Under the pieces are notes generated by a model. It searched no databases and was not told the origin of the DNA. It saw only the letters and a program-made list of their open reading frames with translations. The translations under genes and the position numbers were made by a program. DNA of 7,494 bases. Source: Chloroflexota bacterium (GTDB lineage: Bacteria > Chloroflexota > FW602-bin22 > JAMCYS01). This document shows, piece by piece, positions 1 to 7,260 of this stretch; position 1 is the stretch's first letter; each line of letters starts with the position of its first letter. The stretch spans positions 1 to 7,494 of the forward strand of contig JAJZQK010000143.1 in assembly GCA_021847625.1 (NCBI GenBank), written 5' to 3'.

Positions 1-368
1 GCGGCAAGACCGATCCCCTGGTAGTGCCCAAGAAGGCGGCGCTCTCGCGCGACTTCCAGGCCTCGACGGCCTTCGTCGACTCCAGCGGCCACTGCCTCTT
101 CATCACCTTCGCCACCGGCGACCTGGCCGAGGGCTTCGAGGGCCTGGTCGAGGAATGCGCGGGGGCCCTAGGCACCGATTGGAAGAAGGACGACGTGTAC
201 GCCGTCGGCTATGCCTGCCTCAGAAGGGAACGCGAGTTCAACGCCAAGGCCGGCTTCAGCGACGTGGACGACCGCATGCCCGAGTTCATGAAGCGGGAGG
301 CCCTGCCACCCCACAACACGGTGTGGGACGTCCCCGACGAAGACCTGGACTGGGTCCACAAGTACTAG
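1..368 (+). CDS. Aldehyde ferredoxin oxidoreductase (AOR family), C-terminal fragment
   Basis: The reading frame is open from the left edge (first full codon at 3) to TAG at 366-368, so this is the 3' end of a larger gene. AOR family enzymes oxidise aldehydes or related substrates using a bis-pterin tungsten (or molybdenum) cofactor and one 4Fe-4S cluster, passing electrons to ferredoxin. Family marks seen: a DSSGHC segment, matching the DSxGxC stretch that supplies the last cluster cysteine (codon 93-95), then REFNAKAGF and DDRMPEF, matching the conserved (R)xFNxxxGF and DDxxP motifs near the C-terminus, and an ending of the type LPPHNxVxDVPDEDLD. The catalytic core and the CxxCxxxC cluster ligands lie outside the window. 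A MoaD-like gene follows, as is common for AOR genes, but a terminator separates them. A GTG at 24 is only an internal codon. The subfamily and substrate cannot be told from this tail. Confidence 0.9.
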   Translation, partial: GKTDPLVVPKKAALSRDFQASTAFVDSSGHCLFITFATGDLAEGFEGLVEECAGALGTDWKKDDVYAVGYACLRREREFNAKAGFSDVDDRMPEFMKREALPPHNTVWDVPDEDLDWVHKY

Positions 369-661: not shown

Positions 662-940
662 ATGGGTACGATAGAACTGCACCTATACGGCGAACTGCGC
701 AAGCACACGGGCCAGACGGCCTACAATCAGGACTCCATCGCCGAGGTCGAAATCACGGAAGGGAGCACGGTGGCCGACGCCGTTGGCTCCCTCGGCGTCG
801 GCGCCGAGCTCGTCGGCCTGGCCTTCGTCAACGGGCAGTTGTCGCGCCCCAGCAGACAAGTCGCCGACGGCGACCGGGTGGGCGTGTTCCCGCCGAGCAT
901 GCGGCTGCTCTATAAGTGGTACTTCGACGAGAAGACCTAG
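662..940 (+). CDS. MoaD/ThiS-family small beta-grasp protein lacking the C-terminal diglycine
   Basis: A 92-aa protein with the MoaD/ThiS beta-grasp pattern: a first strand IELHLYGELR, the helix-leading EGSTVADAV (33-41), AFVNGQ (54-59) and DGDRVGVFPP (69-78). MoaD proteins carry sulfur as a thiocarboxylate on a C-terminal Gly-Gly during molybdopterin (and tungstopterin) synthesis. Here the chain continues past FPP for 14 residues (SMRLLYKWYFDEKT) with no Gly-Gly, so adenylation and thiocarboxylation at the end are not expected. It may be a structural or chaperone-like relative of MoaD linked to the AOR enzyme. The ATG at 662 starts the first conserved strand at once; purine-rich GAGGGAAATGGGTAGAAG precedes it. 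No simple frameshift after FPP restores a diglycine. The family call is confident, the role is not. Confidence 0.82.
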   Translation: MGTIELHLYGELRKHTGQTAYNQDSIAEVEITEGSTVADAVGSLGVGAELVGLAFVNGQLSRPSRQVADGDRVGVFPPSMRLLYKWYFDEKT

Positions 941-1246: not shown

Positions 1247-2530
1247 ATGGAGGTTGAGGTCAGGCTCTTCGCGTCGCTGCGAGAATACTTGCCGGGGGTG
1301 AAAACGGGGGAAGGCACTCGCCTAGCCCTCCCGGAAGGCGCCACCGTGGCCGACCTCTTCGCCGCCTTGGCCGTGCCCGCGGAGGAGGTGCGGCAAACCT
1401 TCGTAAACGGACGGGTCGTCGAGCCGCAGCGCGTCTTGCAGGAAGGCGACCGCGTCGGCATCTTCCCACCCGTCGGCGGCGGATCGGGAGAAGTCCCCGA
1501 CACCTCGGCCATCCTCGCCATCGACGTGGGCGCCGGCACCCAGGATATCCTCCTCTATCGGGAAGGCATCCCTATCGAGAACTGCGTCCAGCTCATCCTC
1601 CCCTCGCCGACGGTCATCCTCGCCGGGAAGGTGGCCGAAGCCACCTCCCGCGGACGGCCGCTGTTCCTCGTGGGACACGTCATGGGCGGGGGAGCGGTGA
1701 GCGGCGCCGTCCGGGCGCACCTGGAGGCCGGCCTGGACGTCTATGCCACCCCGGCGGCCGCCGCCACCCTCTACGACGACCCTGCGCGCGTGCGGGCGAT
1801 GGGCGTCAAAATCGTCGACAGCCAGCCGGCGGGCACGGAGTCGGTGACGATGCGCGACGTCGACCTGCCCGCCCTGGGCGCGGCGCTGGCGCCATTCGGC
1901 GTCGCGCTGCCGGCGACAGTCGCCGTCGCCGTGCAGGACCACGGCTACGCGCCCCACATGAGCAACCGGCTGTTCCGCTTCGAGCACTGGCGCCGCTTCG
2001 TCGCGGAGGGCGGCGACATCAAGAACCTCATCTATGCCGAGCCGCCCTCTTACCTGACCAGGATGCGGGCCGTGCGGGAGGACGTACCTGGCGCCTACGT
2101 CATGGACACGGGCGCCGCGGCCATCTGGGGGGCGCTGGCCGACGAGGAGGTCGCCGGGCATCGTGACGAGGGGCTCACCGTCGTCAACGTCGGCAACGCC
2201 CATACCGTGGTCGCCCTGCTGCGGGGAAGTCGCGTCGAGGGTCTGCTCGAACACCACACCGGCGCCCTAACCTCCGCCAAGCTCGCCGATTACGTATCCC
2301 GTCTGCGGCGCGGCGAAGTGCGGGAGGGCGAGGTATTCGACGACGGCGGCCACGGCAGCTGCTACGCGCCCTCGTTCCAACCGAGCGAAGGCTTCGCCTA
2401 CGTCGCCGTGACCGGCCCCAACCGCGGCCTCGCCGCCAACCTCGGCTACCACTTCGCCGTGCCATACGGCGACATGATGCTGGCCGGCTGCTTCGGCCTC
2501 GTCGCCGCCCTCCGGGCGAAGGTCGGGTAG
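1247..2530 (+). CDS. MoaD-like domain fused to DUF1786 ASKHA-like domain through a GGG linker
   Basis: A 427-aa protein. Residues 1-79 are a complete MoaD/ThiS beta-grasp domain (VEVRLFASLRE, EGATVADLF 30-38, FVNGR 52-56, EGDRVGIFPPVGGG 66-79). After S80-G81 a short linker leads into DUF1786: AIDVGAGTQDILLY (91-104, a phosphate-loop-like actin/hexokinase segment), LPSPT (118-122), GHVMGGG (143-149), DTGAAAIWGAL (287-297), VVNVGNAHTVVALL (312-325, a second nucleotide-loop-like segment), HHTGAL (336-341) and VTGPNRG (388-394). DUF1786 is often labelled a pyruvate formate-lyase activating enzyme, but no radical-SAM CxxxCxxC is present and the biochemical role is unknown. FPPVGG is where a free MoaD would end, so cleavage after the glycines would release a mature carrier. 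No start codon lies in the linker and the frame is continuous, so this looks like a true fusion. GAGG 6 nt before ATG supports the start. Confidence 0.88.
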   Translation: MEVEVRLFASLREYLPGVKTGEGTRLALPEGATVADLFAALAVPAEEVRQTFVNGRVVEPQRVLQEGDRVGIFPPVGGGSGEVPDTSAILAIDVGAGTQDILLYREGIPIENCVQLILPSPTVILAGKVAEATSRGRPLFLVGHVMGGGAVSGAVRAHLEAGLDVYATPAAAATLYDDPARVRAMGVKIVDSQPAGTESVTMRDVDLPALGAALAPFGVALPATVAVAVQDHGYAPHMSNRLFRFEHWRRFVAEGGDIKNLIYAEPPSYLTRMRAVREDVPGAYVMDTGAAAIWGALADEEVAGHRDEGLTVVNVGNAHTVVALLRGSRVEGLLEHHTGALTSAKLADYVSRLRRGEVREGEVFDDGGHGSCYAPSFQPSEGFAYVAVTGPNRGLAANLGYHFAVPYGDMMLAGCFGLVAALRAKVG

Positions 2531-2643: not shown

Positions 2644-2871
2644 GTGCGCCCTTCCCCGTGCACTCTGGAACGGAACCCACAGGTGGTCTTTTACGCAGTT
2701 CACTCCGCCCCCTGTCTGGGTATAGACCTGGCGGGGGTCGACCGCAACGAGACGGGCATCGCCCTGCTGGTGCAGGGCCATCTGGCGATGCTCGGCTCGG
2801 CCTACACCGACTCAGAGATCATCGCCCACGTCGAGGCGGCGGGGCCGACGGTCTTATCCAGCCATATCTAG
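2644..2871 (+). pseudogene. DUF429 (RNase H-like) gene, 5' remnant cut by the restriction module
   Basis: Residues 26-70 match the start of DUF429 proteins, predicted nuclease-like RNase H-fold proteins: GIDLAGVDRNETGIALL (with the first acidic residue, D28) and a region ending AAGPTV. In the family this is followed by a strand and a loop of the type V(A/C)IDAPL. Here the match ends at V70 and the frame meets a stop five codons later. V70 ends at 2853 and the stop codon of the opposing endonuclease occupies 2854-2856, so the break coincides with the edge of the restriction module. No 3' remainder was found later in the window. The start is either GTG 2644 or, more like the family length, GTG 2683. 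A product, if made, would lack most of the fold. Confidence 0.7.
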
Positions 2872-3774
2872 CAGCCTCTCAAGCTCTGCTACAATAGTAA
2901 GTGCAGACTGAGCCCTCGATGACGGAATGTCAGTGGCCTGTTGCACACGTTCCTTCAAGCGTTCGAGTGCTCTACGAGCCGCGTCATCACTAGTGCTCTC
3001 TTGAAAAGCCTTCAAGAACCTCTGCCAGTAGACCGTCTTGATACCACACAGTTGTACATTCTCAAGTTTCTGAATGTAAGAGTCCATTATGCCGGTGCGG
3101 GCTAATCGGCCGAAGTTGCCGCCACCGTCGTAACGAGGCCTATCGAGAATGTGCTCAGTCCGTGAAGGGTAGGGGCTGACCCCTTCGGGAATGTCAATTC
3201 CTGTGTCATTGGCGGTTTGGCGGATATGCTTCCAGTGGTAGTTACGATATTCGGCCGCATACCTTGCCGATTCGATGAACGCCTCGAACAAAACTGGCGA
3301 GCCACTGATCACGTTTCCCAATACCCACGGAACGACGACGATCAAGTCCTGCTTAGCGCATGCAGCGGCGGTGGTCTGAAACCGCAAACTCGGTTCAGTC
3401 TCCTTTGCTAGCAGATACCATCCTTTTAGTTCTATGCCCAATAGCACCTCGTCGGTTGAGGTCTTGCGCAACAGGACGTCGGGAAAGCTCTGCGGTTGCC
3501 GAACGAAACTATAGAGTGCATACTTCTCGTCCGGGTCCCACGTATTCCGCAGCAAATTCAGGGTCCGGACGACTTGATCCTCAATCGTCGCGCCGAGCAC
3601 AGTGTTGAGCGTGTGCAGATCCGTTGCCATAATCCCCGAGATATGGGTCTCCGTCCTGAAGTAGATTGGCAACGACGCGATGGCCTCTCGCGTATTCTGG
3701 TAGAGCTGGTGATGTTCATACTCTGGCCCCGGCAATTCTCTTGATGGGGCCGCCGGCAGGTCTTGCTCCTTCAT
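2854..3774 (-). CDS. Type II restriction endonuclease, PD-(D/E)xK fold
   Basis: A 306-aa soluble protein placed directly after a DNA methyltransferase. Its stop overlaps nothing downstream, but its start ATG overlaps the methyltransferase stop as ATGA, indicating translational coupling. The nuclease core is visible: E65 in TIEDQVVR (helix acid candidate), F97-P98-D99 in SFPDVLL, and E115-L-K117 in LGIELKGWYLL, which together make a PD-x15-ExK metal site. A second half with GGGNFGRL (217-224) and a charged helical C-terminus would hold the target-recognition and dimer parts. It should cut unmethylated DNA at the site protected by its partner. I cannot name the specificity. An SD-like GGAGAGG lies 11 nt before the ATG inside the methyltransferase gene. 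The C-terminus ends exactly at the junction with the DUF429 stump, so the last residues may have been changed by the insertion event. Base composition is lower in GC than the flanks. Confidence 0.85.
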   Translation of the reverse strand: MKEQDLPAAPSRELPGPEYEHHQLYQNTREAIASLPIYFRTETHISGIMATDLHTLNTVLGATIEDQVVRTLNLLRNTWDPDEKYALYSFVRQPQSFPDVLLRKTSTDEVLLGIELKGWYLLAKETEPSLRFQTTAAACAKQDLIVVVPWVLGNVISGSPVLFEAFIESARYAAEYRNYHWKHIRQTANDTGIDIPEGVSPYPSRTEHILDRPRYDGGGNFGRLARTGIMDSYIQKLENVQLCGIKTVYWQRFLKAFQESTSDDAARRALERLKERVQQATDIPSSRAQSALTIVAELERLLDMAG

Positions 3775-4838
3775 GACCGCATCAACCTCTCCACTGCTGC
3801 AGCGTAGAACTCCGGGATGATCTCTGCTCCGCAGTACCGGCGGTCAGAACGGAAGGAGACAACAGCTCCCGGGCACAGGCCGCCGAAGGGTTCCCAGACG
3901 ACATCACCCTCATCCGTAGAAGCACGGACCACCAAGTCGATGAACTTAAGAGGTTTCTGACTGCCATGCAGGCTGCTGAACTTGTATCTCATTCCATTCC
4001 GCTTTCCCTGGACACGCTCCGACCCACCGACTTGCGGTTCACGCCAGACGTTGGTCACGCCTACGCTGCAGTGGAATTTGGCCCGCAGCGTGGCCCACAC
4101 TTCATCTGGAATGGGGCTCCTTCCGTCCATACTGAAATACGGCCGACCTGCCGGGTGTCCGTGCTTGTTCGCATACTCGGCGAGCCTTGAGAAGGCGTCT
4201 ACCGGTGGGTAATACCAGAGATGATCCGCCGTGAGGTACTTCCGGGTTGCGGCGTTCAGCACACCACATGCCTCGTTCGCTAGCCGGAATGGCAACTTGG
4301 TTCGTTTCCACTCGTGACGAAGCCACTCTTGCATGCTCAACGATCGGCTCCCCACTTGAAACATCGCCGCCTTTACGTAGTGTACGCATACCTCAGTAAC
4401 GACGGGGAACTTGCGTAGCGTCTTGCTGTTCGCATTACCCGCCACATGCCCCAGGCCTTTGTCCCAGATATTGCAGCAGCGGTACTCCCAGCCGTTCGCA
4501 ACCAAGACCGGATGTACCGTTGCCCATCCCAGTTCGGTGTTCCAGAACCAGAGAGTTGTCTGAGGTGTAGAACGGTCACTCCAGGCCCTGATGTGCGGCT
4601 CATACCACCCGGCAAGTGACTCGGCCTTATGGTTGTCACCGGGAAAACCGCTCACCCCGTAGGGACCATCAGAGATAATACATGTTGGAGTTGGCCAATC
4701 AGCGTACAGTCGCTCAGCGTGGTCAAAGTGAATCGATACCAAACCACGAGAGAACTTGTCCCCAAACACTGGCACTCGTTCGTATCTTTGCCATTCAGAA
4801 AGGAAGTTGCCCTGCAATGTGCGTTCGGTCTTGTACAT
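3771..4838 (-). CDS. Type II DNA amino-methyltransferase (N6-adenine or N4-cytosine), beta class
   Basis: A 355-aa protein from ATG 4838. It transfers a methyl group from S-adenosylmethionine to an exocyclic amino group, protecting host sites from the adjacent nuclease. Motif order is that of the beta class: catalytic motif IV first (S56-D57-G58-P59-Y60-G61, a DGPY variant of DPPY), then a target-recognition region, then HGSQKP (291-296, motif X type) followed by WEPFGG (315-320, the AdoMet-binding motif I) and GAEIIPEFYAAAVERL (337-352). The frame extends upstream to an ATG at 4958, but that ATG lies beyond the -35 box at 4932-4937, the extra 40 residues have no motif, and ATG 4838 has AGAGGA 7 nt in front, so 4838 is chosen. 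It is the first gene of a two-gene operon with the endonuclease; making the methylase first is the usual safe order. The DGPY spelling leaves adenine versus cytosine open. Confidence 0.9.
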   Translation of the reverse strand: MYKTERTLQGNFLSEWQRYERVPVFGDKFSRGLVSIHFDHAERLYADWPTPTCIISDGPYGVSGFPGDNHKAESLAGWYEPHIRAWSDRSTPQTTLWFWNTELGWATVHPVLVANGWEYRCCNIWDKGLGHVAGNANSKTLRKFPVVTEVCVHYVKAAMFQVGSRSLSMQEWLRHEWKRTKLPFRLANEACGVLNAATRKYLTADHLWYYPPVDAFSRLAEYANKHGHPAGRPYFSMDGRSPIPDEVWATLRAKFHCSVGVTNVWREPQVGGSERVQGKRNGMRYKFSSLHGSQKPLKFIDLVVRASTDEGDVVWEPFGGLCPGAVVSFRSDRRYCGAEIIPEFYAAAVERLMRS

Positions 4839-4884
4839 GAGGGAGTCCTCTGTCACTTGATGATCGTGGCCAGCCGCGGACACG

Positions 4885-4912
4885 GTATTGCTTGAAGGCC
4901 GTGGGGCAATAC
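4885..4912. promoter_or_regulatory. Inverted repeat overlapping the methyltransferase promoter (operator candidate)
   Basis: GTATTGC (4885-4891) and GCAATAC (4906-4912) are perfect 7-bp inverted repeats 14 nt apart. The second arm covers four bases of the -10 box and the first lies in the early transcribed leader. The placement suits a repressor site or a leader hairpin. No separate controller gene is next to the pair; the binding protein is unknown. Confidence 0.4.
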
Positions 4913-4937
4913 TAGCACTCCCTCGCTGTGATATCAA
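4909..4937 (-). promoter_or_regulatory. Sigma-70-type promoter for the restriction-modification operon
   Basis: On the minus strand TTGATA (4937-4932) and TAGTAT (4914-4909) are separated by 17 nt, and TGC directly before the -10 makes it an extended -10 box. The start of transcription should fall near 4902, giving a leader of about 64 nt before ATG 4838. Confidence 0.6.
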
Positions 4938-4987
4938 TAGACCCGCCGCAATGGTCATCGTCCTTGACGGGGAAAACTCGACACTGT

Positions 4988-5707: not shown

Positions 5708-6316
5708 CTACTGCTCGGCACGGCTAAAGAGCCCTTTGACGAACAGTGCCGCGCTTCCCAGGACGCCAATCGCGAAGGCCAGCGGCGCCACGATCACGGC
5801 AAGCAAGAAGAAAACGGCTTCCTCAACGTTCAGCAACGCACTGATCGCGTTGTGGAGAACGACGCCCACTACGAACAAACAGATCGAGCCTCCCGCCACA
5901 GCCAAGAACGCCTTCAACATCCGCAGACCCCTTTCACTCGATGTCAGCTTCACCCGATCGAAGTAAAGGTAGGACAGAGCATAAGCCGCCGTGCCCGCGA
6001 TCAGCAGGCCACCCACGACGTACCCGACGGCTGACCCGGGCACTGACACAAGGCCAAAGAGGGCCGTCAGGAAAGCCGAGGCTAACACGAAGAAGACGAA
6101 CCCGTTACGCAGAGCGCCGGCCATGTTCTCCTGCACGCGCTCGTCGAAGGGCGGCAGTCTCCGCCACCTGAGCAATGACCACACCTCGCGGTAGCCGACC
6201 ATCAGGGCGGCGATCAATAGAGCGATGACCACGTAGTACGACTGCAGCAACAAGAACACCGTCACGAACAACCCAGCACATATGGAAAGGCCAACGAACA
6301 GTCTTTGCAGGACCAC
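5708..6316 (-). CDS. Polytopic membrane protein (DUF2178-like) paired with XRE regulator
   Basis: A 202-aa integral membrane protein of unknown function. Hydrophobic segments at roughly 6-24, 27-42, 72-92, 96-116, 133-156 and 165-195 suggest about six membrane passes. Between the second and third is a cytosolic-looking loop RWRRLPPFDERVQENMAGALRNGF in two parts, where D58-E59-R60 and the following amphipathic helix resemble the DER motif of DUF2178 membrane proteins. Genes of that family are often followed by a small XRE regulator, as here. The protein is longer than typical DUF2178 members, so it may be a two-unit version or a related family. The start is GTG 6316, supported by GGAGG 5 nt upstream. 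The pair has its own promoter at 6364-6392. Confidence 0.75.
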   Translation of the reverse strand: MVLQRLFVGLSICAGLFVTVFLLLQSYYVVIALLIAALMVGYREVWSLLRWRRLPPFDERVQENMAGALRNGFVFFVLASAFLTALFGLVSVPGSAVGYVVGGLLIAGTAAYALSYLYFDRVKLTSSERGLRMLKAFLAVAGGSICLFVVGVVLHNAISALLNVEEAVFFLLAVIVAPLAFAIGVLGSAALFVKGLFSRAEQ

Positions 6317-6557: not shown

Positions 6558-6632
6558 TGGGCGTTGAGGGATTCGAACCCCCGAACCTCACGGATGTAAG
6601 CCGTGCGCTCTAACCAGCTGAGCTAAACGCCC
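6558..6632 (-). tRNA. tRNA-Val (anticodon UAC)
   Basis: A full cloverleaf of 75 nt is readable: acceptor GGGCGTT with AACGCCC (7 bp), D arm GCTC-AGCTGGTTA-GAGC, anticodon arm CACGG-CTTACAT-CCGTG with TAC at its centre, variable loop AGGTTC, and T arm GGGGG-TTCGAAT-CCCTC with one G-U pair. The discriminator is A. The genomic bases after it read CCC, so the CCA end is not encoded and must be added. The anticodon UAC reads valine codons of the GUN box, chiefly GUA and GUG. It has its own promoter and terminator and stands next to the accessory region, a common position for inserted DNA. Confidence 0.95.
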
Positions 6633-6783: not shown

Positions 6784-7260
6784 ATGGGTGCAGTGGATAG
6801 GGTGCAGGGGCTGCTGGCAGAGGCCGGCCTGGGGATTGACGTCGTCCACCTGGAGAAAGATACGCGCACGGCAGAATTGGCCGCCCGGGCGCTGGGGACG
6901 GAGGTGGGGGCGATCGTGAAGTCGCTCGTCTTCCTCGCCGACGAGGCGGTCGTCCTCGCCCTGGTGGCGGGCGATAAGCGGGCCGACCTGGGCAAGGTCG
7001 CCGAGTCGCTCGGCGCGAAGAAAGTCGAAATCGCCCGCGGCAGCGTCGTCAAGGAACGCACGGGGTTCGCCATCGGCGGCGTGCCGCCCCTGGTGAAGGA
7101 CGGCGAGGGGAAGCAGGTCCCTACCTTGATGGACCGCCACCTCTTCCGCTACGATACGGTCTACGCGGCGGCGGGGTCGCCGTTCGACATCTTCCCCGTC
7201 AGCCCGTCGGCGCTGGCCGGACTCGTCGAGGCCAGCGTGGGAGACATCACGGAGGTGTAG
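6784..7260 (+). CDS. YbaK/EbsC-family aminoacyl-tRNA deacylase
   Basis: A 158-aa cytosolic protein of the YbaK/ProX/EbsC editing family, which hydrolyses mischarged tRNAs such as Cys-tRNA-Pro or Ala-tRNA-Pro. Signs of the family: TRTAELAARALG (27-38), GAIVKSLVF (42-50) with K46 the invariant lysine of the active site, LVAGDKRAD (60-68), ERTGFAIGGVPP (91-102) with the GGVPP loop, and TLMDRHLFRYDTVYAAAGS (114-132) leading into FPVSPSALAGL. Length is normal for the single-domain form. After GGVPP the family often has VGH; here LVKDGEGKQ is inserted or substituted. The start ATG 6784 has AGAGGT 6 nt upstream. The next gene starts 2 nt after the stop, so they form an operon. Exact tRNA specificity cannot be assigned. 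Confidence 0.9.
   Translation: MGAVDRVQGLLAEAGLGIDVVHLEKDTRTAELAARALGTEVGAIVKSLVFLADEAVVLALVAGDKRADLGKVAESLGAKKVEIARGSVVKERTGFAIGGVPPLVKDGEGKQVPTLMDRHLFRYDTVYAAAGSPFDIFPVSPSALAGLVEASVGDITEV

Follow-up and report, generated by a model that had tools for sequence, protein, structure and literature searches.

In a 7,494-nucleotide stretch of DNA from an uncultured Chloroflexota bacterium (the window), a MoaD-like carrier runs without a stop into a domain of the DUF1786 family, which raises the questions of whether the joined chain is a precursor cut after its internal glycines and of what DUF1786 does. The original prediction had placed such a fusion at 1247–2530, and our analysis bears it out: this plus-strand ORF of 427 amino acids is intact from ATG to TAG, and Pfam recognizes both halves. 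The MoaD/ThiS β-grasp domain (residues 1–79; 1247–1483, plus strand) matches ThiS over residues 5–79 (E 8.6e-13; 49.1 bits against a cut-off of 22.5), and Foldseek pairs it with SAMP1 (3po0, E 8.9e-5). Because this half reached 31.2 of the 66.15 bits set for the NCBIfam moaD equivalog, we call it MoaD-like and not a certified MoaD. The second domain (residues 89–427; 1511–2527, plus strand) matches DUF1786 (PF08735) over residues 146–394 (E 3.3e-90; 302.3 bits against a cut-off of 25) and covers profile positions 1–251 of 252, making it a full-length family member. Third-position GC is 0.82 in the carrier half and 0.90 in the DUF1786 half, both in one frame.

The β-grasp domain ends FPPVGGG, with the glycines at codons 77–79 (1475–1483, plus strand) followed by the nine-residue linker SGEVPDTSA (residues 80–88; 1484–1510, plus strand), positions that agree with the earlier description. 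When aligned with 17 homologues, the second domain begins at about residue 83, and codon 83 (GTC; 1493–1495, plus strand) occupies the site of the start methionine of stand-alone DUF1786. As encoded, the carrier has no free C-terminal Gly-Gly: 348 residues follow G79, and only cleavage could expose the glycines. In a structural model of the fusion, pLDDT falls below 50 only at residues 76–80, around the glycines and linker.

An error in assembly or base calling, or a mutation at strain level, could make two genes look like one in a single contig, and two circumstances favor this: the fusion is found in one contig only, its protein cluster comprising two member sequences from one 17.6-kb contig, and the nearest relative encodes two genes. 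A single substitution could create a stop at any of codons 79–82, and one at codon 80 or 83 could create a start. However, since stop and start are both required, restoring two genes takes at least two substitutions. There is no in-frame ATG, GTG or TTG between codons 64 and 94, and an indel would make the carrier continue through another 74 codons in one of the other frames and 229 in the remaining one. Thus no single base change restores two ordinary genes, and we regard a sequence error as unlikely.

A search of approximately 5.8 billion clustered proteins yielded 2426 homologues among 7996 candidates scored. In the best 120 homologues listed, DUF1786 is stand-alone in the other 119, and the fusion is a singleton there. 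Querying with residues 1–82 against proteins of full-length size only gave five matches among 571 candidates, and DUF1786 was present only in the query itself. Neither the 29 genomes from the class of the nearest relative nor 400 from its phylum yielded a second fusion. We also inspected the genome loci of the best 80 of 345 relatives, some of which lie near a contig end, and MoaD adjoins DUF1786 in one of the 80 (L001). Loci L035 and L117 contained no MoaD match, though their matches reached into the carrier half. The database search suggested with the original prediction thus returned one fusion among the matches listed, and on these counts we reject a conserved MoaD-DUF1786 architecture.

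The nearest relative, Chloroflexi bacterium FK_Sedi_B_Bin.34 (L001; 66% identity), encodes carrier and DUF1786 as two genes that overlap in different frames, with MoaD at 5995–6252 and DUF1786 starting at 6239. The original prediction had named separate genes with a stop after Gly-Gly as the case that would count against it; the separate genes are there, but the L001 carrier runs past its glycines (GGGGPDADR) and does not stop at them either. In that relative's class, DUF1786 occurs in 21 of 29 genomes, and only the L001 genome has a MoaD neighbor. The DUF1786 tree groups the window with L001 and seven database proteins in a nine-row clade (SH-aLRT 100), and the carrier-domain tree groups it with L001 and P0125 in a three-row clade (support 97/88, from 86 columns only); carrier and DUF1786 thus occur as a pair in both lineages. 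The neighbors of the pair differ, being an AOR array in the window and, in L001, a gene that is presumably a MarR-type regulator. Seven of the eight DUF1786 relatives in the window's clade start with Met, and P0005 starts with Leu, all at about the same place; the fused state is therefore most simply derived. It belongs to a known kind, the carrier fusions, among which it is rare and derived.

DUF1786 is predicted by structural modelling to adopt an ASKHA/actin-like fold. The aligned ASKHA proteins FtsA, PilM, diol dehydratase reactivase and 2-hydroxyisocaproyl-CoA dehydratase activator share 14–16% identity with DUF1786 in those four rows, and a search of PDB sequences gave no match to DUF1786 below E 0.7. 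The window is one of 52 DUF1786 rows that share 65 invariant columns, including D93, G95, T98, Q99, D100, N314, G316 and N317, which we take to be putative phosphate-binding motifs. The Pfam description of the family suggests pyruvate formate-lyase activation. Pyruvate formate-lyase activases are radical-SAM enzymes, and with an ASKHA fold in the model we do not find this assignment supported. The literature we searched held no paper on DUF1786 or PF08735.

The neighbors of unfused DUF1786 genes give an independent view of the family's role. When every ORF was searched, moeA lay beside or near DUF1786 in 10 of the 80 loci and mogA in 7, together 11 loci; L141 supplies an eleventh moeA and an eighth mogA row, but comes from the same genome as L062. 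By gene density (41 MoeA_N matches in 24 genomes, kinship ignored), 0.34 moeA neighbors would be expected versus the 10 found. In several loci, including L012, L064 and L077, DUF1786 overlaps or abuts moeA by a few bases, a coupled-operon arrangement. AOR directly follows DUF1786 in two of the 80 (L033 and L052), the order in L033 being 4Fe-4S protein, DUF1786, AOR. The Moco-linked DUF1786 rows fall into two clades and the AOR-linked rows into one, all apart from the window's clade; the ten moeA loci are therefore not ten independent events.

Neighboring genes were also called as greedy longest ORFs and assigned by Pfam, using 76 of 78 upstream and 68 of 75 downstream calls (nine shadow-ORF-like or edge pieces omitted). 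MoeA_N was the immediate upstream neighbor in 4 of 76 and the downstream one in 6 of 68, with ThiS upstream once and AFOR_N downstream twice. Six called ORFs (L047, L050, L062, L070, L051 and L064) had been swapped by hand for the moeA, mogA or phosphorylase ORF there, which favors moeA in these Pfam counts and makes the all-ORF count the more trustworthy. Other frequent neighbors were the purine phosphorylase family (11 of 76 upstream genes) and, downstream, pyridine nucleotide-disulphide oxidoreductase (12 of 68) and DNA ligase (7 of 68); the majority of DUF1786 loci have neighbors other than Mo/W-cofactor genes.

Across 400 Chloroflexota genomes, DUF1786 occurs in 103, AOR in 178 and both in 60 (odds ratio 2.1, p 0.0013, kinship uncorrected). 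This count leaves out four of 107 rows (G032, G123, G362 and G388) in which the match was to the carrier half or a broken piece. As 43 of the 103 DUF1786-bearing genomes have no detected AOR, the family is not AOR-specific, and we reject a role as an AOR-only factor. The presence of moeA, mogA and AOR beside unfused relatives independently supports the earlier proposal that DUF1786 belongs to Mo/W-pterin metabolism, and the guess with the most support is that the family acts in Mo/W cofactor synthesis or in enzyme maturation.

The window itself opens inside a gene for aldehyde ferredoxin oxidoreductase (AOR), of which it contains the C-terminal end (3–368, plus strand; Pfam AFOR_C E 2.3e-12, residues 2–103, profile 247–346), which supports the proposed connection of the fusion to AOR. 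Between the two lies gene B (662–940, plus strand), a MoaD-like β-grasp gene (Pfam Ub-Mut7C E 3.8e-11, ThiS E 1.7e-6) whose product ends in FPPSMRLLYKWYFDEKT and lacks Gly-Gly. Relatives of gene B with similar ends follow AOR, directly or behind one more MoaD-like gene, and gene B falls in one clade with the A and B rows of the arrays (support 100/99). The A and B β-grasp proteins after AOR (the window's 662–940; L165–L171 and L192–L199) have LLYKWYF-like or MALLYV-like ends without Gly-Gly. The A and B kinds often stand in tandem ahead of a gene that has it.

Using gene B as query, we obtained matches in 12 genomes among 400 of the phylum (E no higher than 1e-6) and, among 346 genomes from a second class, in 10 (E no higher than 1e-12); together these are 20 different genomes. 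Fifteen arrays were tabulated; G123, G200, G221, G362 and G368 were left out because their stretches had neither AOR nor a B-type gene. The arrays run from AOR through one or two MoaD-like genes without Gly-Gly (ends such as MALLYV or DMALLYKWYF) to a last gene, here labelled GG-type. AOR lies within the fetched stretch in 13 of the 15, with none there in G044 and G428. The window has the order AOR, B type, GG type on one strand (3–368, 662–940, 1247–1483), as do G415, G435, G412 and G413; G002, G014, G032 and G013 have the same order plus one extra MoaD-like gene after AOR. In most arrays the gaps are narrower than the approximately 300 nt before and after the window's gene B. A 46-nt inverted repeat flanks gene B (561–606 and 1149–1194, 93% complementary, 542 nt apart) and possibly belongs to a mobile or dispersed repeat.

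The last MoaD-like gene has Gly-Gly in all 15 arrays. Its chain stops there in seven (G014, G044, G032, G435, G428, G413 and G412) and continues in eight with tails of 2–25 residues: FC, LLRGSQQ, HPNPA, VVLVGGK, EGPGSWAI, KDNG, one of 19 and one of 25. The carriers of G214 and G277 are nearly identical and their frames diverge right after Gly-Gly, where a base-calling slip in one is possible. Of the 27 stand-alone carriers that residues 1–82 retrieved, 24 terminate directly after GG or GGG. An R follows the glycines in P0125 and SYD follows them in P0134; the weakest match, P0151, does not end in Gly-Gly. Tails are thus present in 8 of 15 array genes versus 2 of 26 stand-alone carriers (P0151 omitted), a comparison uncorrected for kinship, in which close relatives make up five of the eight tailed genes. 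Sequences in which Gly-Gly is kept while the tail drifts suggest a processed precursor, although an unused end would look the same for a while. If array carriers are processed precursors, the window's DUF1786 would be an extreme tail.

Two database proteins carry other extensions. P0121 (303 aa) has, by eye, an AbrB-like and radical-SAM-like start, a GG-type MoaD (GGGQ) and a second β-grasp-like domain without Gly-Gly; its Pfam domains are ThiS and Ub-Mut7C only, and either a further array fusion or an artefact of assembly could explain it. P0122 (587 aa) has a MoaD domain with FPPVAGG, then a long C-terminal region to which several Pfam accessions of repeat type are assigned (PF01436, presumably NHL), and is another carrier with a large partner behind.

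Carrier fusions that are processed have been described elsewhere. Like the window's protein, MoaX of Mycobacterium has an N-terminal MoaD, an internal Gly-Gly followed by Ser and a partner in Mo-cofactor synthesis; it is reported to be cut between Gly82 and Ser83, a cut required for activity (PMC4326299). The partner in MoaX is MoaE, in contrast to DUF1786 here, and the cleavage demonstrated for MoaX (PMC4326299) is inferred for the window's protein. The Deinococcus MoaD-MoaE fusion DR2607 is likewise a linear carrier fusion, described as cleaved by the JAMM protease DRJAMM, and it too differs in having MoaE as the partner (PMC8832034). A 2006 analysis proposed that MoaD or ThiS may be released from fusions by JAB proteases, and reported MoaD-AOR gene neighborhoods and an AOR-MoaD fusion in Azoarcus; the latter also joins a MoaD-like domain to a tungsten-enzyme pathway protein, but with MoaD at the C-terminus of AOR itself (PMC1779556). 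Finally, the AOR operon of Aromatoleum aromaticum holds two MoaD-like genes, as the window array does; these genes, aorD and aorE, are described as putative W-cofactor maturation factors in passages that mention neither DUF1786 nor a fusion (PMC6365974).

Prok-JAB matches were present in 12 of 16 related genomes, including that of the nearest relative (G001), whose best match has a ThiF/E1 match 1.3 kb away; a search of G001 for MoaE was negative. Prok-JAB presence failed to separate tailed (7 of 8) from untailed (4 of 7) carriers (p 0.28). Cleavage of the fusion at residues 77–79 is plausible: the low pLDDT at 76–80, the Gly-Gly ends with variable tails, the Prok-JAB matches and the MoaX and DRJAMM precedents speak for it, and the unconserved architecture and the two genes of the nearest relative count against it.

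Taking these results together, we put at about even the chance that the window holds a recent fusion of two linked cofactor genes, that DUF1786 is an ASKHA-fold Mo/W-pterin helper and that the chain is cleaved after Gly-Gly by a JAMM-type protease. A GG-type carrier closing an AOR-associated MoaD array would recently have been fused to the DUF1786 gene just downstream, a step based on the ORF, its domains, the two separate genes in L001 and the array context. DUF1786 would presumably be an ATP-dependent helper, as fold and linkage suggest, that makes or delivers the Mo/W-pterin cofactor or matures an enzyme. The fused chain would then be a probable precursor, cut by a JAMM-type protease after the glycines, most likely between G79 and S80, to give a carrier with a free Gly-Gly end and an equal amount of DUF1786. 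Several points stand against this explanation: a single fused sequence is known, 43 of 103 genomes have DUF1786 without AOR, many neighbors are unrelated, the array spacing is looser, the Prok-JAB comparison with tails is non-significant and MoaE was not found in G001. A broader version is possible, and we hold it tentatively: AOR-linked GG-type carriers would routinely be precursors with disposable tails, the tail here being replaced by an ASKHA-fold DUF1786 that acts as an ATP-dependent factor for W/Mo-cofactor synthesis or insertion, with one cut releasing carrier and partner in equal amounts.

If the fusion is young, its retained glycines may reflect inertia and not use, and two other accounts of it compete with the precursor reading. 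In the first, the fusion is real but stays uncut, and the β-grasp domain would have become a docking module or tether by which DUF1786 is attached to AOR, MoaE or another array protein, with the glycines as a flexible hinge. The array A and B proteins, which lack Gly-Gly ends, indicate that β-grasp proteins apparently unfit as carriers are normal beside AOR, the linker is predicted to be flexible, and the separate L001 carrier has no free Gly-Gly end as encoded. However, Gly-Gly in the last gene of 15 of 15 arrays and the 24 of 27 close stand-alone relatives that stop exactly at GG or GGG suggest that the end is used, and we consider docking somewhat doubtful. It is very improbable, in our estimate, that the stop was simply lost and the chain tolerated, with DUF1786 working as before and paralogues covering for an idle carrier half. 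Carrier paralogues are indeed plentiful (with P0001 as query, G001 yielded five matches, four of them confined to the carrier half), and the sequence right after Gly-Gly looks unconstrained in two array relatives. Against such neutrality, the carrier half retains its family match and its glycines, and divergence between the window and L001 is lower at codon positions 1 and 2 (0.35 and 0.29) than at position 3 (0.55), although most of this divergence may predate the fusion.

The value of the finding is that it directs an ASKHA-fold family to Mo/W cofactor biology, a direction that the unfused relatives support independently. DUF1786 is widespread, with 2426 protein clusters matched, and the fusion together with the moeA, mogA and AOR neighbors gives it a concrete and testable place in Mo/W-cofactor metabolism. 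The variable tails after Gly-Gly in AOR arrays suggest in addition that bacterial tungsten pathways may process precursors in the style of ubiquitin.

The remainder of the window contains a putative type II restriction-modification pair on the minus strand (2854–4958), consisting of an N6_N4 methylase (3771–4958, minus strand; Pfam E 2.7e-11) and a weak REase_II match (2854–3774, minus strand; PADLOC E 2.3e-7). Because third-position GC in the methylase is 0.63, below that of the upstream genes, the pair may be acquired. An ORF at 2644–2871, whose end is overlapped by the REase_II gene, resembles by eye a cut-off gene start. Searches against viral contigs and plasmids were uninformative, as was a promoter and terminator scan of the window. 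The RNA family search returned a tRNA gene (6558–6632, minus strand) and no other RNA family in the window, and a gene of the YbaK/aminoacyl-tRNA-editing type lies near the tRNA gene at 6784–7260.
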